From the NCBI RefSeq assembly GCF_024296665.1, contig NZ_CP100762.1, positions 2,666,001 to 2,730,000 on the forward strand: 64,000 nt of DNA. Direction: 5' to 3'. Source of the stretch: Salinilacihabitans rarus. GTDB taxonomy: Archaea; Halobacteriota; Halobacteria; Halobacteriales; Natrialbaceae. Numbering within the stretch: position 1 is the first letter of the stretch; each line of letters starts with the position of its first letter. Of the stretch, positions 38,200 to 49,053 are shown piece by piece. Under the pieces are notes generated by a model. That model ran no database searches, was not told where the DNA came from, and worked only from the letters and a program-made list of their open reading frames with translations. A program made the translations under genes and the position numbers.

Positions 38200-40062
38200 A
38201 TGAACGTCGTGCCGGACACGAGCGTGGTCATCGACGGCCGCGTCTCCGCGGCGATCGATGACGGGCAGTACGAGGGAGCGACGGTGTCGGTCCCCGAGGC
38301 GGTCGTCGCCGAACTCGAGGCACAGGCCAACGACGGCATCGACACCGGCTGGGAGGGTCTCGAGGAACTCCAGCGGCTGGCCGACCTCGCCGAGGAGGGG
38401 GTCGTCGAACTGGAGTACGTCGGTTCCCGCCCGAGCGCCATCGAGCGCGGGCACGCCTCCGAGGGCGAGGTGGACGCGCTCATCCGCGACCTCGCCGAGG
38501 ACCTCGACGCCACCTTCGTCACCAGCGACGTCGTTCAGGCGGAGGTCGCGAGAGCCAAGGGGCTCGACGTGGACTACATCTCGCCCGAACGCCGCCGGGT
38601 GGGCGAACTCGCGATCGAGGACTTCTTCGACGACGAGACGATGAGCGTCCACCTCAAGACCGACGCGGTGCCGATGGCCAAACGCGGCGCGCTGGGCGCG
38701 ATGCGCTACGAACCGATCGACGACGAGCCGATGGCCGAGGCGACCGTCGACGAGTACGCCCGCGAAATCGTCGACGGCGCCCGGGAGGCCTCCGGCGGCT
38801 TCATCGAACTCTCGGAGCCGGGGATGAAGATCGTCCAGTTTCGCGACTACCGGATCGCCATCGCCCGGCCGCCCTTCTCCGACGGCATCGAGATCACCGC
38901 CGTCAGGCCGATCGCCCAGACCGACATCGAGGACTACGACCACGCCGACGAGTTGAAAGAGCGCCTGCTGGAGCGCCAGCGCGGCGTCCTCATTTCGGGC
39001 TCCCCGGGGGCCGGGAAGTCGACGTTCGCCCAGTCGGTCGCCCGCTACCTCTCCGAACACGACTACGCCGTCAAGACGATGGAGAAACCCCGCGACCTGC
39101 AGGTCGGCCCGGAGATCACCCAGTACACCGAACTCGGCGGCCGGATGGAGAAGACCGCCGACGCCCTGCTGATGGTCCGGCCGGACTACACCATCTACGA
39201 CGAGGTCCGCAAGACCGACGACTTCGAGGTGTTCGCGGACATGCGACTGGCGGGCGTCGGCATGATCGGCGTCGTCCACGCCACCCGGCCGATCGACGCC
39301 CTCCAGCGGCTGGTCGGTCGCGTCGAACTCGGGATGATCCCCCAGGTGGTAGACACCGTCGTCTTCATCGAGGCCGGCGAGGTCGACACCGTCTACGACG
39401 TACACACCGAAGTCAAGGTGCCCGCGGGGCTCACCGAGGAGGACCTCGCTCGCCCGGTCATCCTCGTCACCGACTTCGAGACCGGCGAACCGGCCTACGA
39501 GATCTACACGTTCAACCGGCAGGTCGTCACCGTCCCGCTGACCGACGAGGACGGCGAGCGCGAGTCCGGCGTCGACCGCATCGCGAAAGGCGAGATCGAA
39601 CGCGAGATCCGCTCGATCGCCCGCGGCTACGTCGACGTCCACCTGAAGGGCAAAGACCGCGCGGTCGTCTACGTCGAGGAGGACGACATCTCGAGCGTCA
39701 TCGGCAAGGGCGGCGGCCGCATCCAGGACGTCGAGAACCGCCTCGGCATCGACATCGACGTCCGCACCCACGACGAGAACCCCCACTACGGGACCGGCGG
39801 CGGTTCGAACGCCGGCGGCGCGAGCGCGAGCGCCGGCGGGTCGGGCCAGATGGTCACCCCGGAGATCACCTCCCGGCACATCGTCATCCCGGTCGACGGC
39901 CACCACGGCGAGACCGTCGAGGTGCAGGCCGGCGACGACTACCTCTTCACGGCGACGGTGAGCCGCGGCGGGGAGATCCAGGTGTCGCGTGGCAGCGCGA
40001 TCGCCGACGAGCTAGAGCAGGCGATCGACCGCAAACAGCCGATCACGGTCGTCTCGTCCTGA
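38200..40062 (+). CDS. PIN-domain, PilT-like ATPase and KH-domain protein
   Basis: This 620-residue protein is conserved in archaea. Residues 1-130 are a PIN ribonuclease domain with acidic active-site residues (VPDTSVVIDGRVS, EAVVAELEAQA, SEGEVDALIRDLAEDLDATF). Residues about 200-440 are a secretion-type ATPase with Walker A ISGSPGAGKSTFAQSVARYL near 267 and the Walker B-like segment YTIYDEVRKTDDFEVF. Residues about 490-540 are a KH RNA-binding domain with the GKGGGRIQDVE loop. The arrangement suggests an ATP-driven RNase or RNA remodeller, but the substrate is unknown. A Gly/Ser-rich linker (NAGGASASAGGSG) separates the KH part from a C-terminal domain. Confidence 0.92.
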   Translation: MNVVPDTSVVIDGRVSAAIDDGQYEGATVSVPEAVVAELEAQANDGIDTGWEGLEELQRLADLAEEGVVELEYVGSRPSAIERGHASEGEVDALIRDLAEDLDATFVTSDVVQAEVARAKGLDVDYISPERRRVGELAIEDFFDDETMSVHLKTDAVPMAKRGALGAMRYEPIDDEPMAEATVDEYAREIVDGAREASGGFIELSEPGMKIVQFRDYRIAIARPPFSDGIEITAVRPIAQTDIEDYDHADELKERLLERQRGVLISGSPGAGKSTFAQSVARYLSEHDYAVKTMEKPRDLQVGPEITQYTELGGRMEKTADALLMVRPDYTIYDEVRKTDDFEVFADMRLAGVGMIGVVHATRPIDALQRLVGRVELGMIPQVVDTVVFIEAGEVDTVYDVHTEVKVPAGLTEEDLARPVILVTDFETGEPAYEIYTFNRQVVTVPLTDEDGERESGVDRIAKGEIEREIRSIARGYVDVHLKGKDRAVVYVEEDDISSVIGKGGGRIQDVENRLGIDIDVRTHDENPHYGTGGGSNAGGASASAGGSGQMVTPEITSRHIVIPVDGHHGETVEVQAGDDYLFTATVSRGGEIQVSRGSAIADELEQAIDRKQPITVVSS

Positions 40063-40074
40063 GCGGCCGCTCGC

Positions 40075-40467
40075 TCACTCCTCGCGGTAGAGTTCGGGGT
40101 TTCGCCACCAGAACAGCCCCCAGCCGAGCGTGAAGCCGACGATCATCGCGACGACGTCCCGGAGCAACTGGTTCAGGCCGGTGTCGAGGACGAGCGCGAG
40201 CGCGATCCCCGCGCCGAGCGCGGAGGCGACCACGACGAACAGCGCGTCGCCGACGATCCGTGCCCGCGAGTGCTCCCAGTAGGAGCGTCGATCCTCGTCG
40301 TACCAGACGCCGACGTAGACCAGCACCGGCGACATGAACGCGATCGTCGTCACGACCCGCCACTCCAGAGCGACGTCGAGAAGCCAGTTGATCGTCGACG
40401 ACGCCGCCGCCGCGACGAGCAACCCGAGAAGTAGCCACGCCCAGCGTGGCAACGACTCCCTGTCCAT
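40075..40467 (-). CDS. Conserved haloarchaeal membrane protein
   Basis: This 130-residue protein starts MDRESLPRWAWLLLGLLVAA and has four hydrophobic segments. The segments include SPVLVYVGVWYDED, IVGDALFVVVASALGAGIALALVL and VVAMIVGFTLGWGLFWWRNPEL. It is a typical small multi-span protein of haloarchaea with no functional motif. It converges on the PIN-ATPase gene and is followed upstream by the winged-helix gene on the same strand. Confidence 0.7.
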   Translation of the reverse strand: MDRESLPRWAWLLLGLLVAAAASSTINWLLDVALEWRVVTTIAFMSPVLVYVGVWYDEDRRSYWEHSRARIVGDALFVVVASALGAGIALALVLDTGLNQLLRDVVAMIVGFTLGWGLFWWRNPELYREE

Positions 40468-40512
40468 GCGTCCAACTCGTTCGCGCCGGGAAAATAGCTT
40501 ACCCCGGAGCCG

Positions 40513-40809
40513 TCACTCGGCGCAACAGGCGTCCTTGTTCGCGCCGGACTCCTCGACGCCGCTGCCGTCGGCCGCGACCGGGTCGTCGATTCGGTAGAGA
40601 CTCTGCCGGGCGTCCGCGAAGTAGATGTTCTCGTCGACGACGCCGATCTCACCGAGGCGTTCGAGCGCGTATCGAACCGTCCGCGCCGACAGCATCGACT
40701 CCTCGACGATCTGCTTCTGGGTCAGCGGACCGTCGTACTCGAGTACCTTGAACACCAGTTTCGCACTCGGCGGCAGATCCGATATCTCCTCTCCGTCGGT
40801 CTCTTCCAT
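40513..40809 (-). CDS. Winged-helix MarR/TrmB-type regulator
   Basis: This 98-residue protein has one winged-helix domain (DLPPSAKLVFKVLEYDG, QIVEESMLSARTVRYALERL, then a wing with DENIYFADARQSLYRID). It ends in an extended tail with GANKDACCAE; the adjacent cysteines could sense redox state or bind metal. A TATA element TTTTATAC on the minus strand (40833-40840) lies about 24 bases before the start, so the message is leaderless. Neighbouring DUF5305 and surface genes lie upstream on the same strand. Its plan matches the provirus regulator at 6318-6599. Confidence 0.85.
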   Translation of the reverse strand: MEETDGEEISDLPPSAKLVFKVLEYDGPLTQKQIVEESMLSARTVRYALERLGEIGVVDENIYFADARQSLYRIDDPVAADGSGVEESGANKDACCAE

Positions 40810-40832
40810 GTTACGATTCGAAACCTGCAGCA

Positions 40833-40840
40833 GTATAAAA
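40833..40840 (-). promoter_or_regulatory. TATA box of the winged-helix regulator gene
   Basis: TTTTATAC on the minus strand is centred about 27 bases before the ATG at 40809, so transcription should start at or next to the start codon. TTCGAA (40817-40822), a perfect 6-base palindrome, lies between the two and could be part of an autoregulatory site. Confidence 0.55.
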
Positions 40841-40930
40841 GTTGAGCCTTACTGGGATGGCCCGCCCCGACGCGGATCGGCCGGCGGCGCCGCCGGCCGA
40901 ACGCGGCTCTTACCGGGCGTGAACGACGGA

Positions 40931-42049
40931 TTACCGGTCCGGACAGCCGAGGTCGTCGTCGGGCCGGCCGTCGGGGGACGCCGGCGTCCCCTCCGGCGGG
41001 CGGTCGTCGTCTTCGGGCGGTTTCGCCTCGGTGTTCGTCTCCGGCCACGCGGTCTCCTTCCAGTTGCCCCGCTCTGCGTAGTAGTAGACGACGTCGTCGC
41101 TGACGACGGCGAACAGGTCCCGCTGGCGGTCGTGGACGACGCGCTCGCCGGTGTCGATGGCGACGTCGACGACGTCCTCTAAGGTGTCGAGGGCGACGTG
41201 GTGGTCGCCGATCCGCATCGGGATCGTCCCCCGGGAGATCCACTCGGCGTACCGGCGCTCGTGGACCGCCCGGCGGGCGGCCTCGGGGTCGGCCGGCGAC
41301 CGGCGCGCGACGAACGCGGCGCCGGCCAGCGAGACCGCCGCCAGCGCCGCCAGCCCGCCGACGCGCAACGGACTCGGCGTCTCGGTCACCTCGACCTCGA
41401 CCGTCTCGGGGTGGTCCTCGTCGTCCGCGAGCGACTCCTCGAGCCAGTAGGCGTCGGCGCCCACCCGCAACGGGCTGGTGGCCGTCAACGCGCCCTCGTT
41501 CGCCCCGGTGTCGTACGCGACGCGCAGCGCCAGCGAGACTTCGACCGTGCCGACCCCGCGAAGTTCGGACTCGACCTCGCGGGTCCGGTCGACGACCTCG
41601 CGGACGTCGAGGGCCGCCTCGGAGCGCGCGAGGCCGTCCTCGACGGGGGCCTCCTCCCGGAGGACGACGTCGCGGTCCTCCCAGAACGTCTCGCCGTCGC
41701 GGACCGCCTCGTACCGGACCGCCAGTTCGTGGGTGACCGCGGCGTCGTCGCTCGGGACCGCCGTCTCCGGCGTCAGCGTCAGCGTCGGCGTGGCGTTCGT
41801 CAGGTAGACCGAACTCTCCTCGAGGCTCTCCCCCGCCTCCCAGAGGCCGTCCTCGACGACGACGGCGCTCGTGTGGACCTCCGTCTCGACGGTTTCCGCG
41901 GTCCGCTCCTGGGTCGCGGTCGTCGTCTCCGGCGTGGCGACCACCCACCCCGCCGACGCCGCCGAGACCAGCCCCACCAGCGCCAGCGCGACGACGAGCG
42001 TCCGGCCGCGCTCCGCGATCAGCAATTCGAGGCGCGGACTGTCGATCAC
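40931..42049 (-). CDS. DUF5305 membrane protein of the surface-protein locus
   Basis: This 372-residue protein has an N-terminal membrane segment (TLVVALALVGLVSAASAGWVV), a large extracytoplasmic beta-rich part (residues about 45-235) and a second span (RVGGLAALAAVSLAGAAFVA). The cytoplasmic tail contains RRYAEWISRGTIP and a stretch with DVVYYYAERGNWKE, and ends in an acidic, Pro-rich tail. This is the plan of DUF5305, a haloarchaeal family often next to SipW-like signal peptidases. It may anchor, fold or regulate secreted fibre subunits. The start is GTG at 42049, overlapping a short upstream frame as GTGA. It is the last gene of the leftward arm. Confidence 0.75.
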   Translation of the reverse strand: MIDSPRLELLIAERGRTLVVALALVGLVSAASAGWVVATPETTTATQERTAETVETEVHTSAVVVEDGLWEAGESLEESSVYLTNATPTLTLTPETAVPSDDAAVTHELAVRYEAVRDGETFWEDRDVVLREEAPVEDGLARSEAALDVREVVDRTREVESELRGVGTVEVSLALRVAYDTGANEGALTATSPLRVGADAYWLEESLADDEDHPETVEVEVTETPSPLRVGGLAALAAVSLAGAAFVARRSPADPEAARRAVHERRYAEWISRGTIPMRIGDHHVALDTLEDVVDVAIDTGERVVHDRQRDLFAVVSDDVVYYYAERGNWKETAWPETNTEAKPPEDDDRPPEGTPASPDGRPDDDLGCPDR

Positions 42050-42162
42050 GGTCGGCTCACCCCCGACGATCGCCGCCGGTCGCCGGGTCCGTCGACGCCC
42101 GCGACCGTGCGGCCGACCCGCGTCCGATCCCCTCGGTCGGCTCGGTCGATCGAACCACTCAC
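42046..42162 (-). CDS. Possible short leader peptide before the DUF5305 gene
   Basis: This frame of 38 codons starts with GTG at 42162, is rich in Arg, Asp and Gly (SIDRADRGDRTRVGRTVAGV) and ends with a TGA that overlaps the DUF5305 start codon (GTGA). That geometry is typical of coupled genes in this window. It may instead be an untranslated leader: ACCCGT-(7 bases)-ACGGGT at 42168-42186 and a GTTATACC TATA-like element next to it suggest a separate promoter here. There is no domain. Confidence 0.25.
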   Translation of the reverse strand: MSGSIDRADRGDRTRVGRTVAGVDGPGDRRRSSGVSRP

Positions 42163-42214
42163 AGTACCACCCGTACCGGCCACGGGTATAACGATACTGG
42201 CCGACGCGGGGCGG

Positions 42215-43378
42215 CTACCGCCGGTTACGGAGCTTTCGCGCGATCCGGATCGAGAGGGGAACGTCCCCGCCGGGACGCCGGACGCGGAGGTCGCTGCTCC
42301 CGAAGAGGGCGACGACGACCGCCGCCGCGACGCCGACGATCACCGCGTCGACCGCCGCGATCGCGACGAACGGGTGGATCGCGTGGAGGCAGGCCAGAAG
42401 CCACGCCGGGAGCACCGCGAGGTAGCGGTACTCGCCGACGTGGCGGACGTACTCGCCGGGTTCCGCCGGCGCCGCGAGCGTAACGGTCGCCGCCGCCTCG
42501 TCGCGGATTCCCACGCGGAGCACCTCTGGCTCGACCGCGACGCCGTCGCTCTCGGGTTCGAGGACGGTCACGACCGGGAGGTAGCCGGCGTTGTCGATCG
42601 TCCGCGACAGTTCGCCCGTCTCCCCCGGGGGGACCACCTGCGGGTCGTCGGTCGGTTCCCCGGCGCCCACCAGCCCGTACTCGGTCGTCCCCGACGGCAC
42701 GACCATCGCCGCCGTCGCGAACGTGACGAGCACGACGAGCACGAGCGCGAGCGTCGTCCGGAAGGCGAGGACGTTCTCGCGGCCCCGCGTCCGTCTCGTC
42801 TCGCGGCGGGCACCCGAGTCGAACAGCAACCCGAGGCCCAGCAGCGCGACGCCGAGGCCGATCAGCACCGCGCCGGCGTCGTCGCCCTCGAACGCCGCGG
42901 TCACCCCGACCGGGGCCGCGAGGGCGTCGGCCGCCGCTTCGAGCCCCTCGTGGGCCGCCATCACGGCCGTCCCGAGGTGCGGGATCGTCACTACCTCGCC
43001 GTTCGCTTGCAGGGCGACGGCGACGATCTGCCCCTCCGCGACGGCCGCCTCGCCGCCGTCCTGATCGGTGACGGGGTTCGCGTCGCCTTTCGTGACGTAG
43101 CCGCCGTCGGTCTCGCCGACGACGCGGTGGGTGGTCAGCCCGCCGTCGTGTAACGTCGCCGCGTCGAAGACGACCACGTCGCCCCCCTCGACCGGGCCGG
43201 CCAGCGCGCTCGGGACCGCGACGAAGCCGTCGCCGGCGTTCATCGCCGGCGCCATGCTCCCCGTCGCGACGTAGCCGAGCAGGATCGGCTGGCCCAGCAG
43301 TTGTCCGAGCACGAGCGAGAGGGCCACCAGCGCGAGGAGTGCGGTCGCGGCCCGCGAGAGGGCGGTGCGAGCGGTCAT
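42215..43378 (-). CDS. SipW-like type I signal peptidase
   Basis: This 387-residue membrane protease of the archaeal/ER type uses Ser and His instead of Ser and Lys. The catalytic Ser41 lies in VATGSMAPAM after an N-terminal span, His84 in LTTHRVVGE, and Asp99/Asp105 in TKGDANPVTDQD. After the protease part come several spans (VLIGLGVALLGLGLLF, LALVLVVLVTFATAAMVV and, near the C-terminus, ACLHAIHPFVAIAAVDAVIV), with a beta-rich region between them. Such peptidases with extra C-terminal domains often sit beside TasA/DUF1102 fibre genes and process them. It lies 45 bases after the CARDB gene. Confidence 0.88.
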   Translation of the reverse strand: MTARTALSRAATALLALVALSLVLGQLLGQPILLGYVATGSMAPAMNAGDGFVAVPSALAGPVEGGDVVVFDAATLHDGGLTTHRVVGETDGGYVTKGDANPVTDQDGGEAAVAEGQIVAVALQANGEVVTIPHLGTAVMAAHEGLEAAADALAAPVGVTAAFEGDDAGAVLIGLGVALLGLGLLFDSGARRETRRTRGRENVLAFRTTLALVLVVLVTFATAAMVVPSGTTEYGLVGAGEPTDDPQVVPPGETGELSRTIDNAGYLPVVTVLEPESDGVAVEPEVLRVGIRDEAAATVTLAAPAEPGEYVRHVGEYRYLAVLPAWLLACLHAIHPFVAIAAVDAVIVGVAAAVVVALFGSSDLRVRRPGGDVPLSIRIARKLRNRR

Positions 43379-43423
43379 CGCGTCGACCCCGGTGCGATCG
43401 TCGCAGCGTTCGGCCGCGTATCG

Positions 43424-44560
43424 TTACGCACGGCGCCGCGTCACCCCCAGCAGGAGGAACACCCCGACGGCGGCCGGGGGCAGGACCGCGGCGCCCGCGC
43501 TCGGCGGCAACTCGCGGACGCCCGTCGGGACCGCGCTCCGGTCCCCGACCGTCACCGACCCCGCGGGGTCGCCGTCGACGGCCACCTCGTACGTCCCGGG
43601 GTCGTCGAGACGCCGCTCGAACGCCACCCGGGTCTCCTCGCCGGGATCGAGTTCGATCCGCTCCGTCTCGACGACGACGGTACCGACGGCGAACTCGACG
43701 TCGGTCTCGCCCGTCGCGTTGCCGACGTTCCCGACCGTCGCCTCCGCCCGGACGGGTTCGCCCGGTTCGATCCGCGCCGATTCGAGGCCGACGTCCCGCA
43801 CCTCGAACGCGGGCGCGGGTTCGCCCGACGGCCGGACGATCACCGTCTGGGTCGCGCCCGTCGATCCGATCTTCACCTTCCCCACCTCGTCTACCGTGCG
43901 CTCGAACGTGACCGTCCGCGTCCCGCCGGCCCCGACGACGACCCGCTCGGTGTCGACGACGAGTCCGTCGACGACGAGTTCGGCGGTCGTGCTCCCGTCC
44001 CCGTCGCCGCGATTCTCGTAGGTCTGGGTGACGGTGACGGCGTCGCCCACGGGGAGTTCGGTCGGGGAAACGGTGGTGTCGACGTGGTGGATGTCGGGGT
44101 CGCCGACGGCGTCCCCGTCTCCCGCCACGGCGACGACGGTGAACGTCTCGGTTCCCCCGGTTGCGACGTGGGTGTCGATCGAGACGCCGACGGAGACGGT
44201 TTCGCCGGCGGCGAGTTCGACGGGATTCGAGTCGTTGATCTCGTCGGTCGGGTCGCCGTCGGCGTAGAACGTGACGCCGTCGACCTCCGCCTCGATCCAC
44301 GCGGACCTCGACTCGTCGGTCGTGATCGTGAACACGTCGTCGAACTCGGAGTTTGCTCGGTCGTTTACCCGATCGAACTGCAACTCGATTTCGCCGTCCG
44401 AGACGGCGACGAACTCGCCGTTCGGCCCGCTGTGGGGGGCTATACCGACGCCGGCGGTCGGTTCGTCGACCGGCGTCGCTCCGGTGGGAACCGCGAGACC
44501 GACGGCGAGTGCTCCCGCCAGCAGAACGAACGCGACGATGGAGATTGCGGCCCGGGGCAT
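43424..44560 (-). CDS. Secreted CARDB/DUF1102-like surface protein with C-terminal anchor
   Basis: This 378-residue protein has an N-terminal signal segment (AAISIVAFVLLAGALAVGLA). The first domain includes GVGIAPHSGPNGEFVAV and ANSEFDDVFTITTDES, as in DUF1102/TasA-like proteins. Two CARDB-type beta-sandwich repeats follow (TVTQTYENRGDGDGSTTAEL near 180 and RAEATVGNVGNATGETDV near 280). It ends with a Pro-rich stalk and a C-terminal hydrophobic anchor (AAVLPPAAVGVFLLLGV) plus RRR. It is probably an accessory surface protein, for example a base or adaptor for a TasA-like fibre. It lies between the DUF1102 and signal-peptidase genes. Confidence 0.78.
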   Translation of the reverse strand: MPRAAISIVAFVLLAGALAVGLAVPTGATPVDEPTAGVGIAPHSGPNGEFVAVSDGEIELQFDRVNDRANSEFDDVFTITTDESRSAWIEAEVDGVTFYADGDPTDEINDSNPVELAAGETVSVGVSIDTHVATGGTETFTVVAVAGDGDAVGDPDIHHVDTTVSPTELPVGDAVTVTQTYENRGDGDGSTTAELVVDGLVVDTERVVVGAGGTRTVTFERTVDEVGKVKIGSTGATQTVIVRPSGEPAPAFEVRDVGLESARIEPGEPVRAEATVGNVGNATGETDVEFAVGTVVVETERIELDPGEETRVAFERRLDDPGTYEVAVDGDPAGSVTVGDRSAVPTGVRELPPSAGAAVLPPAAVGVFLLLGVTRRRA

Positions 44561-44608
44561 GCGTCTGGACGGAACTCGCGTGTCTGGCGCGACTCGAATA
44601 GACGGGGG

Positions 44609-45178
44609 TCAGTTCGCTATCAGCGTGAGCGTCCCCCCGTCTTTGTCGGCCTCACCGGCGGAGTCGGTCGTTCTCCTCCCGGTTCGGACGGTCGCGTTCA
44701 CGTCGACGGTGGCGCCGTCGGACAGCGTGTACTGGTCGCCGCTCCCGTCGTCGTCGGCCAGGGACAGTTGGACCTCCGAACGGACGTTCCCGCTGCCGTC
44801 CGTTTCGACGACGACGGTCGTCGTGGCAGTTTGGTCGCCGCTCCCGTCGTCGAACCCGACGGTTATCGGACTTCCGTCGGCAGTATTGTTCGCAAGCGTC
44901 AGGATCCCGTCGACTACGGTCTCTGCGTCGTCGTTGAATCCATCGCCGGTGCTCGAATCCCCGAGGTCGATTTCGGCCGCGTCCCCCGAGTCGGAGCCAT
45001 CGGCCGCGTACGGGCCGTTCACGCTGATGCCGAGGTAGGCGCTCCGGTCGCCGACGGTCTCGACGGTTACGGTCCGATCCGCCTGCACCCGACTGAACGC
45101 GCCCGATCCCAGCACCGCGCCGCCGCCGGCGACGATCGTTCCCAGTCCGAGCAACACGTTGCGTCTGTTCATTCTCAT
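44609..45178 (-). CDS. DUF1102/TasA-like secreted protein, first gene of leftward arm
   Basis: This 189-residue protein has a SipW-type signal: basic NRRN, then a hydrophobic run (VLLGLGTIVAGGGAVLGSGAFS), with cleavage expected near SGAFS. The mature part begins VQADRTVTVETVGDRSAYLGI, a typical DUF1102 start, and continues as an Asp/Gly/Thr-rich beta-sandwich ending GGTLTLIAN. In Bacillus, TasA and camelysin with the same signal type form amyloid-like or donor-strand biofilm fibres, and archaeal bundling pili are built from homologous subunits. A second paralogue lies across the divergent promoter at 45994-46818. Confidence 0.8.
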   Translation of the reverse strand: MRMNRRNVLLGLGTIVAGGGAVLGSGAFSRVQADRTVTVETVGDRSAYLGISVNGPYAADGSDSGDAAEIDLGDSSTGDGFNDDAETVVDGILTLANNTADGSPITVGFDDGSGDQTATTTVVVETDGSGNVRSEVQLSLADDDGSGDQYTLSDGATVDVNATVRTGRRTTDSAGEADKDGGTLTLIAN

Positions 45179-45410
45179 CGTGTATCACCGATCGATCCGT
45201 CCGCCGGCCGTAGGCGTCGATTACGGCCAGCGGACGGCTCCTGTGCCATTCCTGCCGCCCACCCCCTTTGTATTGAGTAGCTGGAACGTCCGAAGGGTCG
45301 GCCGTACCGCCGTTCAAGCCTCGTCTGAACCGCGTCCGGCGAGCCGATCGCCCCTCCCGGCCGCAGAACCGCGCCTGAGCCACTCTACCGCCCGCTGGCG
45401 GCAACAAGCG

Positions 45411-45452
45411 TTATATGTCAGGCGAACGTTCAGTAACGAACGACGGACGTTC
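45411..45452 (+). promoter_or_regulatory. Divergent-arm promoter and candidate operator
   Basis: TTATAT (45411-45416) is a TATA box about 40 bases before the ATG at 45455. Between the two lie a perfect palindrome GAACGTTC (45424-45431), an overlapping CGTT-CAGT-AACG repeat (45427-45438) and a near copy GGACGTTC (45445-45452). Their position around the start site suggests binding of a repressor, possibly the winged-helix product of the next gene. The rest of the 276-base intergenic gap (45179-45454) shows no further feature that I can support. Confidence 0.45.
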
Positions 45453-45454
45453 TG

Positions 45455-45991
45455 ATGGGGACCAAAAGCGAGGGACGTACGGACCGAGGGAAGGTCTTCG
45501 ACCTGCTCAGTAACCACCGGCGACGGTACGTGATCCACTACTGCAAACGCGAGGACGACCCGGTCGAACTCGGGGACCTCGCCGAGCACGTCGCGGCGTG
45601 GGAACTGGACAAGACGGTCGAGGAACTCACGTCGGCGGAGCGAAAGCGCGTCTACACGGCCCTCCAGCAGACCCACCTCCCGACGCTCGAACGCGCGGAG
45701 ATGATCGAGTTCGACGACCGGACGATCGAACTGACCGAGAACGCCGAACACCTCGACGTGTACCTCGACGTCGTCCCCGACGACTCGATCCCGTGGGGGG
45801 TGTACTACCTCGGGCTGTCGACGGTCGCGGTTGCGGTGCTGGCGGGGCTGTGGCTCGGGTGGCTCCCGACGGAGACGGTCCCGACGCTCGGCTGGGCGAC
45901 CGCCGTCGTCGCGCTGTTCGCGAGTTCGGCCGTCGTCCACGTGGTCCAGAACCGACGGATGCGCCTCGGCGAGGTGGAGCGACCGCCGTAA
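45455..45991 (+). CDS. Membrane-anchored winged-helix protein (DUF7344 type)
   Basis: This 178-residue protein has an N-terminal winged helix (VFDLLSNHRRRYVIHYCKRED, then LTSAERKRVYTALQQTHLPT and MIEFDDRTIELTENA) of the haloarchaeal DUF7344 kind. Two membrane spans follow (GVYYLGLSTVAVAVLAGLWLG and LGWATAVVALFASSAVVHVV). It can bind DNA near the membrane, so it is a plausible sensor-regulator of the surface-protein locus on either side. It is transcribed rightward and followed after two bases by the second TasA-like gene, in one unit. Confidence 0.8.
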   Translation: MGTKSEGRTDRGKVFDLLSNHRRRYVIHYCKREDDPVELGDLAEHVAAWELDKTVEELTSAERKRVYTALQQTHLPTLERAEMIEFDDRTIELTENAEHLDVYLDVVPDDSIPWGVYYLGLSTVAVAVLAGLWLGWLPTETVPTLGWATAVVALFASSAVVHVVQNRRMRLGEVERPP

Positions 45992-45993
45992 TC

Positions 45994-46818
45994 ATGGCCG
46001 ATACGTCTCGGATCACGCGACGGGCCGCGCTGGGGCTGGTAGGCGGCGGTGCGCTTCTCACGGCCGGGGAGACGCTCGGCGTCACCAGTGTGACGAGCAC
46101 CCGGGAGGTGAGCGTGAGCGTGAACGGGGATTCCGGCGGATTCGTCGGCCTGCTCGTCAACGACCAGGTCCGGAAAAACCGGCGGGAACGCCTCGTCGAC
46201 GTGACGAACAACACCGACGAGGCGATCGACGTGACCGTCTCGCTGTCCGATTGCGGCCACGGGGCGCTCTACGGCCCCGACGGTGTCTCGGGGTGTACGG
46301 TCGAGTTCGGCCTCGCCGCGTCGGGGCTCGCCGGCGACTCGAAAACCGTCGAGGTCGAGGCCGCGGCCGGCGGGATTTCCGTTCCGTTCGCGATCACGGC
46401 CACCTCGTCGGCGCTGTCGTTCGAGGCGACCCGGTCGACGGACGCCGCGTTCGGTACCGGCACCGACGGCGCGGTCGAGATCACGACCGTGAAAAAATTC
46501 CGGGCGAGCGCGGGCGACGACGACTGGACGGTCGAGGAGATCGAAGCCGTCTCGAACGACGAGCCCTCCGAACTGGACCACGTGGCGTTCGAGGTACGGG
46601 CCGACGCGGGCGACGGCGACGTGGTCGGGACGTTCGAAGAGTCCGCCGGCGGGAACGAGTACTTGCGGTCCGGTTCGAACGACGACCCTGCAATCACCAT
46701 CGAACCCGACGGCGGCCACGGGATAGACCGAAACGCCGCGTACGAACTGACGGTTACCGTCTCCGACACCGCCAGCAACTTCGACTCCGCGACGGAACTC
46801 ACGAGGGCCACGCCCTGA
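45994..46818 (+). CDS. Second DUF1102/TasA-like secreted protein
   Basis: This 274-residue protein starts MADTSRITRRAALGLVGGGA with a twin-Arg-containing hydrophobic signal, then a segment VTSVTSTREVSVSVNGDSGG that resembles the start of the mature domain of the protein at 44609-45178. The rest is a beta-rich domain with long Asp/Glu/Ser-rich loops, such as FEVRADAGDGDVVGTFEE, and it ends at LTRATP with no C-terminal anchor. It could be the major or minor subunit of a surface fibre. It is two bases downstream of the winged-helix gene. Confidence 0.72.
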   Translation: MADTSRITRRAALGLVGGGALLTAGETLGVTSVTSTREVSVSVNGDSGGFVGLLVNDQVRKNRRERLVDVTNNTDEAIDVTVSLSDCGHGALYGPDGVSGCTVEFGLAASGLAGDSKTVEVEAAAGGISVPFAITATSSALSFEATRSTDAAFGTGTDGAVEITTVKKFRASAGDDDWTVEEIEAVSNDEPSELDHVAFEVRADAGDGDVVGTFEESAGGNEYLRSGSNDDPAITIEPDGGHGIDRNAAYELTVTVSDTASNFDSATELTRATP

Positions 46819-46913
46819 TTCGCCTCCCGTCGTTCACGTAAGCCGGTAGTACTCGGCCGTCCCGGTGATCGAAACCCGAACGCCTTTTTAGCGCCGCCCT
46901 CCCACCTCAACCC

Positions 46914-47237
46914 ATGTCGACCGAATCGATCAGCGACCGACGCGAGCACGTCCGCTCGGTCGGCGTGACGGCGCTCGCGGCGCTTGCCGGCGTGGGAGCG
47001 GCGCTCGCGTCCGCGGCGATCACGAGCGGCGTCGATCCCACGACGGCGGCCGGCGACTCCCGGGCGCTCGCGATCGTCCTCGCGGCGATCCTGCTCCAGT
47101 TCCCGGTGCTCTCCTCGACGGGCATCTACGACGACGACGAGTTGGGGCCCAAACACTACCTGTTCGTCGCGTTCATGACCTTCTCGCTGTGGTTCGTGAC
47201 GTGGGGCATCCTGCTCTCGACCGGCGCGGGGGTCTAG
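46914..47237 (+). CDS. EMC6-like small membrane protein
   Basis: This 107-residue protein has three hydrophobic segments: VGVTALAALAGVGAALASAAI, ALAIVLAAILLQFPVL and YLFVAFMTFSLWFVTWGILL, with the loop STGIYDDDELGPKH between the last two. This plan matches the archaeal EMC6-like (Rab5-interacting) family, related to a subunit of the eukaryotic membrane-insertase complex. The stop is one base from the start of the ABCE1 gene, so the two are probably translated together. The role in membrane-protein insertion is inferred from the distant family. Confidence 0.65.
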   Translation: MSTESISDRREHVRSVGVTALAALAGVGAALASAAITSGVDPTTAAGDSRALAIVLAAILLQFPVLSSTGIYDDDELGPKHYLFVAFMTFSLWFVTWGILLSTGAGV

Positions 47238-47238
47238 C

Positions 47239-49053
47239 GTGGCCGAGGACAGCATCGCCGTCGTCGACCTCGACCGGTGCCAGCCCGACCGGTGTAACTA
47301 CGAGTGCAAGAACTACTGCCCGCCGAACCGGACGGGCAAGGAGTGTATCACGCTCCGGGGCGAGGCGGCCGACGAGGGCCAGCCGGATCAGATCCGCATC
47401 TCCGAGGAGATCTGTCTCGGCGAGACCTGTGGCATCTGCGTCGAGAAGTGCCCGTTCGACGCCATCGAGATCATCAACCTCCCACAGGAGCTCCAGGACG
47501 ACCCCGCCCACCGCTACGGCGAGAACGCCTTCTCGCTGTACGGCCTGCCCGCCCCGCAGGAGGGGCAGGTGACGGGCATCCTCGGACCGAACGGGATCGG
47601 GAAGACGACCGCGGTGCGGATCCTCGCGGGCGAACTCGAACCCAACCTCGGGCGCTTCGAGGAGCCGCCGGGCTGGGACGCCGTCCTCGACGCCTACCGG
47701 GGCACCGAACTGCAAGACTACATCGCCGACGTCCGCGACGGCGAGGTCACCGTCGCCCGCAAGCCCCAGTACGTCGACCAGATTCCGAACCAGTTCGACG
47801 GCAACACGCGCGAACTGCTCGAGCAAACCAACGAGCGCGACGCGCTCGACTCGCTCGTCGAGCGCCTCTCGATCGGGCCGGTGCTGGAGCAGGAGATCGA
47901 CGACCTCTCCGGGGGCGAACTCCAGCGCGTGGCGCTTGCGGCGACGCTCGCCCGCGATACGGACTTTTACTTCCTCGACGAGATCACCCCCTACCTCGAC
48001 ATCGGCCAGCGGGTCACCGCGGCGCGTCTCGTCCGCGAACTCGCCGAGGAGGAGGGCAAGTCGATGCTCGTCGTCGAACACGACCTCGCGATCCTCGACC
48101 TGCTCTGTGACACCCTCCACGTCGCCTACGGTGAGCCCGGCGCCTACGGCGTGATCACGGCGCCGAAGTCGGTGCGCAACGGGATCAACGAGTACCTCGC
48201 GGGCTACCTCGAAAACGAGAACATGCGGATCCGCCCGGACCGCATCGAGTTCGAGGAACACGCCCCGCGGGCGGTCACGAGCGGCGAGACGCTCGTCGAG
48301 TACCCCGACCTCGTGAAGTCCTACGGCGACGGCGAGTTCTCCCTCGACGTCGAGGGCGGCGCGATCCGCGAGAACGAGGTCCTGGGGATCGTCGGCCCGA
48401 ACGGGATCGGGAAGTCGACGTTCGCGAAGCTGCTGACCGGGAAACTCGACCCGGACGAGGGCGACGCCGACCTCGACCTCGACGTCTCGTACAAGCCCCA
48501 GTACGTCACCATCGACCAGCACATGCGGGTCGACGCGTTCCTCTCGTCGATCACGGACCAGTTTGGCTCCTCGTACTGGAACACCGAGATCGCCCAGCCC
48601 CTGCAGCTAGAGCGGATCATGGAGCAGAACCTCTCGGACCTCTCCGGCGGGGAGCGCCAGCGGGTCGCCATCGCGGCCTGTCTGTCGGACGACGCCGACC
48701 TCTTCCTGCTCGACGAGCCCTCGGCGCACCTCGACGTCGAACAGCGGGTACAGGCGACCCGCGCCATCCGCCGGTACGCCGAAGGGCAGGACGCGACGGT
48801 GCTCGTCATCGACCACGACATCTACATGATCGACCTGCTCGCGGATCGGCTGATGGTCTTCGACGGCGAGCCGGCGGTCCACGGTCACGCCAGCCAGCCC
48901 CAGCCGATGCGCGACGGCATGAACGAGTTCCTCGCGAACCTCGAGGTCACGTTCCGCCGCGACGAGCGCACCTCCCGGCCGCGGATCAACAAGCCCGACT
49001 CGCAACTCGACAAGGAGCAGCGCCAGCAGGGCGAGTACTACTACGCGCCCTGA
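47239..49053 (+). CDS. rli1: ABCE1/Rli1 ribosome-recycling ATPase
   Basis: This 604-residue cytoplasmic protein splits ribosomes after termination. Two iron-sulfur clusters are at the N-terminus (Cys14, 19, 23, 27 in CQPDRCNYECKNYC, then CLGETCGICVEKCP near residues 58-73). Two ABC domains follow, each with Walker A GPNGIGKTT/ST, signature LSGGELQRVA or LSGGERQRVA, and Walker B FLDEITPYLD or LLDEPSAHLD. A hinge segment joins them. The start is GTG at 47239. The length equals the archaeal family standard. The 3' end overlaps the convergent gene by 13 bases. Confidence 0.96.
   Translation: MAEDSIAVVDLDRCQPDRCNYECKNYCPPNRTGKECITLRGEAADEGQPDQIRISEEICLGETCGICVEKCPFDAIEIINLPQELQDDPAHRYGENAFSLYGLPAPQEGQVTGILGPNGIGKTTAVRILAGELEPNLGRFEEPPGWDAVLDAYRGTELQDYIADVRDGEVTVARKPQYVDQIPNQFDGNTRELLEQTNERDALDSLVERLSIGPVLEQEIDDLSGGELQRVALAATLARDTDFYFLDEITPYLDIGQRVTAARLVRELAEEEGKSMLVVEHDLAILDLLCDTLHVAYGEPGAYGVITAPKSVRNGINEYLAGYLENENMRIRPDRIEFEEHAPRAVTSGETLVEYPDLVKSYGDGEFSLDVEGGAIRENEVLGIVGPNGIGKSTFAKLLTGKLDPDEGDADLDLDVSYKPQYVTIDQHMRVDAFLSSITDQFGSSYWNTEIAQPLQLERIMEQNLSDLSGGERQRVAIAACLSDDADLFLLDEPSAHLDVEQRVQATRAIRRYAEGQDATVLVIDHDIYMIDLLADRLMVFDGEPAVHGHASQPQPMRDGMNEFLANLEVTFRRDERTSRPRINKPDSQLDKEQRQQGEYYYAP

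Follow-up and report, generated by a model that had tools for sequence, protein, structure and literature searches.

A probable Tat-fimbria locus of Salinilacihabitans rarus and its conservation across haloarchaea

Gene content and layout of the locus

Six genes lie at positions 40931-46818 of the window, the 64,000-nucleotide stretch of Salinilacihabitans rarus DNA analysed here, and a check of the open reading frames confirmed that all six are real, intact and placed at the coordinates that the initial annotation had given (Table 1). Read from the left, the minus-strand arm holds a DUF5305 protein, a SipW-like peptidase, a CARDB anchor and a secreted subunit, and the plus-strand arm holds a DUF7344 protein and a second secreted subunit. 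The spacing of the genes is operon-like, with gaps of 165 bp between DUF5305 and peptidase, 45 bp between peptidase and anchor, 48 bp between anchor and main subunit, and 2 bp between DUF7344 and the second subunit. An Rfam scan of positions 40000-47300 returned zero matches. Two small genes adjoin the locus and fall outside the conserved set described below: one directly downstream for an EMC6_arch membrane protein (46914-47237, PF19094, 2.2e-27), and one just downstream of the DUF5305 gene for a winged-helix protein (40513-40809, HTH_24, 1.2e-4).

Table 1. Features of the locus, in positions of the window
Feature	Position	Strand	Description and matches
DUF5305 membrane protein	40931..42049	-	two TM segments; PF17231 1.9e-54
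SipW/ER-type signal peptidase	42215..43378	-	extra C-terminal membrane region; TIGR02228 2.1e-13
TafF-slot anchor	43424..44560	-	signal peptide, N-terminal beta domain, CARDB 4.4e-15, C-terminal TM 353-375
TafE-type Tat-fimbria subunit	44609..45178	-	189 aa; Tat signal MRMNRRNVLLGLGTIVAGGGAVLGSGA; NCBIfam TafE, PDB 9p0a
Divergent intergenic region, TafE-type subunit to regulator	45179..45454	.	276 bp
TATA/BRE-like promoter element, regulator-TafC operon	45400..45419	+	GGCAACAAGCGTTATATGTC; core AANAAGN[GA]TTAT
DUF7344 winged helix	45455..45991	+	two C-terminal TM (112-130, 145-165); PF24035 3e-29
TafC-slot subunit	45994..46818	+	274 aa; Tat signal SRITRRAALGLVGGG; NCBIfam TafC 2.9e-11

Judged by its residues, the peptidase is of the ER/SipW type, with a predicted Ser41-His84 dyad; S41, H84, D99 and D105 are 100% conserved in the 62 rows of the alignment. 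The SipW profile NF046067 matched it at 8e-6 with 25.5 of the 190 bits set as equivalog cut-off, and thus falls under that threshold. The gene is one of two signal peptidase genes in its genome, and we propose that it encodes a dedicated subunit peptidase. The CARDB protein beside it is proposed to be the fibre anchor. Its orthologues in the same slot of other loci (e.g., L061, L043 and L074) are 35-47% identical over more than 250 amino acids, and its N-terminal domain resembles a Haloarcula anchor protein at 1.8e-6. TafF is our own name for the anchor slot adjoining TafE and was returned by no tool. The DUF5305 gene is present in a single copy in the genome, and an assembly or anchoring role is proposed for its product.

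The DUF7344 winged helix is a putative regulator of the locus and occupies the same slot in relatives. Domains of this family are common in the genome (31 matches), the nearest full-length paralogue being 44% identical. By plain count, 13 of 68 loci have the core of this putative promoter element between -47 and -53 relative to the start of the regulator. The divergent intergenic region also holds three copies of GRACGTYC, at 45284, 45424 and 45445. The motif was considered as an operator of the regulator and is not claimed as such, because it was picked after looking and is not conserved in relatives: it lies upstream of the regulator in 2 of 68 loci, the window being one of them.

The secreted subunits and their nearest relatives

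The main subunit matched the NCBIfam profile TafE at 3.1e-18 and TafA at 3.4e-11. These profiles stand for the proteins that make up the Tat-fimbriae, or tafi, of haloarchaea, described by Galeva et al. (iScience 2025, 28:111793, as cited in PMC12687288). An independent search of solved structures matched PDB chain 9p0a_C at 2.1e-15; the entry was released on 2025-07-23 under the name 'Structure of Natrinema sp. J7-2 Tafi pilus'. The window protein and this pilin are 38% identical over 162 residues, and their signals are almost identical. All 215 of 215 residues of the 9P0A chain are identical to a protein of Natrinema gari JCM 14663 (L074:2413-3138(-)), whose gene stands directly after those for SipW and TafF and divergent from a DUF7344 regulator, in an arrangement like that of the window. 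The initial annotation had stated that no haloarchaeal locus of this kind was known to be described in function, a statement that the 2025 description of tafi and the structure of July 2025 have put out of date.

The signal of the window main subunit bears a twin arginine (MNRRNVLLGLG). Of 75 TafE-like proteins of relatives, about 72 share the RR motif and the other three have RK. We infer signal cleavage at A27|F28; the 9P0A model covers 188 of the 215 residues of its chain, which fits a mature start at F28, as judged from length only. The predicted model, built on a 62-sequence alignment, is beta-rich (pLDDT 77) with an N-terminus of low confidence. Its best structural match was the tafi pilin 9p0a (Z 7.8), and the second best was the Pyrobaculum bundling pilus 7ueg (Z 7.1, 112 aligned residues, 3.5 A), which held Foldseek rank 1 at E 7.9e-3. 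SafA and other donor-strand pilins ranked below 7ueg, and the TasA fibre 8aur came at rank 38 with E 1.0. A structural relation of the main subunit to archaeal bundling pili, as initially suggested, is supported, and its nearest relatives are tafi proteins rather than TasA. Since the Z-scores are middling, more weight falls on the homology to 9P0A in sequence. When solved structures were searched with the main subunit by sequence, the Pyrobaculum bundling pilus was not matched, and that pilus is not known to be Tat-exported.

The second subunit shares its early mature region with the first, as had been noticed from the sequence: a profile-profile comparison of the two families aligned the first ~58 columns with a probability of 97% (E 2.3e-11). 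Its predicted model (pLDDT 87) comprises two Ig-like domains after unfolded residues 1-18. N-termini of low confidence are thus common to both subunit models, as expected of a donor strand. Because two Ig-like domains are predicted, we propose that the protein serves as a minor or tip subunit. No tafi or TasA structure was among the matches listed for the model, although a missing match does not mean a different fold. The annotation of this subunit as TasA-like was not borne out. Neither secreted protein matched the TasA, M73 or DUF1102 families of Pfam at E<=1, and the designation of both as DUF1102/TasA-like was likewise not confirmed. A weak DUF1102 similarity (0.0048) was found elsewhere, in the Haloarcula TafF-slot anchor.

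Haloarcula argentinensis DSM 12282 provided a reference locus (G055:C19, here L002; also L110) that scores above the TafA, TafC and TafE cut-offs. Its gene order is SipW-like peptidase, DUF5305, TafC, DUF7344 and TafA, followed by the divergent TafE and TafF-type anchor. The window locus shares with it the TafE-like and TafC-like subunits, DUF7344, DUF5305, the SipW-like peptidase and the TafF-type anchor, but differs in having CARDB domains in the anchor and in lacking TafA, for which neither the NCBIfam profiles nor the gene content of the window locus revealed an equivalent. A TafA match is also missing from most Natrialbaceae loci, including the Natrinema locus with the solved pilin. With bit scores of 66 against 155 for TafE, 44 against 190 for TafA and 43 against 410 for TafC, the window subunits fall short of the curated NCBIfam cut-offs for equivalogs of the Haloarcula type.

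Proposed assembly and alternative readings

The six-gene locus is very probably a tafi locus that makes a donor-strand-assembled surface pilus. This identification rests on the NCBIfam TafE, TafA and TafC matches, the 9P0A match, the 9P0A-identical protein in the sister locus, the shared partner genes and the RR signals. Although genuine and strongly conserved, the locus belongs to an already known kind rather than to a new system. It connects Tat-fimbriae, themselves described only recently, with a single gene set conserved across haloarchaea and gives probable roles to genes so far named by their domains (DUF5305, DUF7344, CARDB anchor and SipW-like peptidase).

In the proposed mechanism, TafE would fold in the cytoplasm and be exported by Tat, genes for TatC being present in the genome. 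The linked Ser-His peptidase of SipW type would then cut TafE after Ala27, and the freed N-terminal ~18 residues could enter the groove of a neighbouring subunit and so polymerise the fibre, with the 44609..45178 product as the proposed main pilin. The TafC-slot protein may become a minor or tip subunit, and the CARDB/TafF protein would use its C-terminal membrane segment to anchor the fibre, with DUF5305 possibly helping at the membrane. The membrane-bound winged helix is envisaged to govern transcription from the divergent promoters.

The initial annotation had read the six genes as a locus for surface fibres, with a pair of related subunits, a peptidase of SipW type and a winged-helix membrane protein linked to them. 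That reading is supported, while its comparison with TasA gives way to tafi as the nearest relatives. TasA carries a Sec-type signal, against Tat signals in the window, where neither TasA nor TapA family was matched. In Bacillus tapA-sipW-tasA a Ser-His peptidase of SipW type likewise sits beside fibre subunits, and the proposed donor-strand principle offers a further likeness (PMC9674648). A strict haloarchaeal TasA/TapA-SipW biofilm fibre, in which SipW would cut Sec-exported TasA orthologues, could draw on the SipW-type peptidase adjoining beta-rich secreted subunits and on the presence of 8aur among the Foldseek matches. It is very improbable given the lack of a TasA or M73 family match, the RR signals on the subunits, and best matches to tafi in both sequence and structure, and the TasA/SipW reading of the locus is superseded.

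Two further explanations accept the genes as they stand and doubt the fibre. The subunits might be non-polymerising adhesins associated with the S-layer, secreted or anchored, with the peptidase and regulator serving general envelope remodelling. CARDB and Ig-like domains are indeed common in monomeric surface proteins, and a pair of Ig-like domains makes up the predicted second subunit, but in the sister Natrinema locus the main-subunit slot holds a protein whose structure was solved as that of a pilus subunit, and we hold this explanation to be highly unlikely. The lack of a TafA-equivalent gene, together with the fact that the genome has just one TafE-like gene, might instead mark the locus as a degenerate tafi remnant that makes no fibre without TafA. 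We give this the least credence of the three, as all six reading frames are intact and most Natrialbaceae loci, the one with the solved pilus among them, have no TafA match either.

Conservation and the export signal of the second subunit

The genes of the tafi locus are co-conserved far above chance. In 43 loci chosen by TafE, a set that takes in the window and two reference loci, the regulator and the peptidase were each present in 41, and DUF5305 in 37. Of the 80 loci chosen by the regulator, some of which end at contig ends or flank limits, 77 contained a TafE-like gene, 70 the peptidase, 63 TafF and 59 DUF5305. A less biased test than either choice of loci is the distance from DUF5305 to TafE: of 80 DUF5305 matches in 61 genomes, 67 lay within 10 kb of a TafE match, against ~1% expected. 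The gene order, whose conservation among haloarchaea the initial annotation had proposed as a check, was recovered in its canonical form in 32 of the 80 regulator-chosen loci; its conservation is strongest in Natrialbaceae, since gene order deviates more often in L082-L122. In three genomes (G005, G032 and G045) TafE-like genes are clustered and number ten or more per genome, which suggests multiple or variable fimbriae.

The TafE slot remains Tat-type, whereas the signal in the TafC slot alternates. A Tat signal occurs there in the window, in Haloarcula, in Halorubrum and in some others, while most Natrialbaceae have a hydrophobic one that lacks RR; the Natrinema gari locus, whose pilin is identical to 9P0A, has such a Sec-type second subunit and in this differs from the window. 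Signal classes were assigned automatically at first, false reading frames and uncertain loci were removed by hand before the regulator tree was used, and three loci were set by hand to Sec-like for high hydropathy. On this tree the Tat/Sec label of the TafC slot has to change 7 times, and well supported branches leave no way around at least 3 of these changes. The mature N-terminus of the TafC-slot protein is conserved across Tat-type and Sec-type loci (L043-L122). The alternation could stem equally well from replacement of the gene in this slot or from a change of signal. It is possible, if somewhat short of probable, that tafi are not uniformly Tat-exported, the TafC slot having switched repeatedly between Tat and Sec while TafE stayed with Tat, and that TafC is an exchangeable tip adhesin. 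In that case a single pilus would combine subunits that fold before export with others that fold only afterwards, and the locus offers the Tat/Sec alternation in a testable form.

The C-terminal ends of TafC-slot proteins also differ. TafC of Haloarcula argentinensis (L002 4983-6269) ends in a LamG domain, a concanavalin A-like lectin (PF13385, 2.6e-24), while the last domain of the second subunit of the window is Ig-like. This difference suggests that TafC may be a tip adhesin whose C-terminal ends are swappable. The LamG domain itself suggests a glycan-binding fibre tip in Haloarcula.
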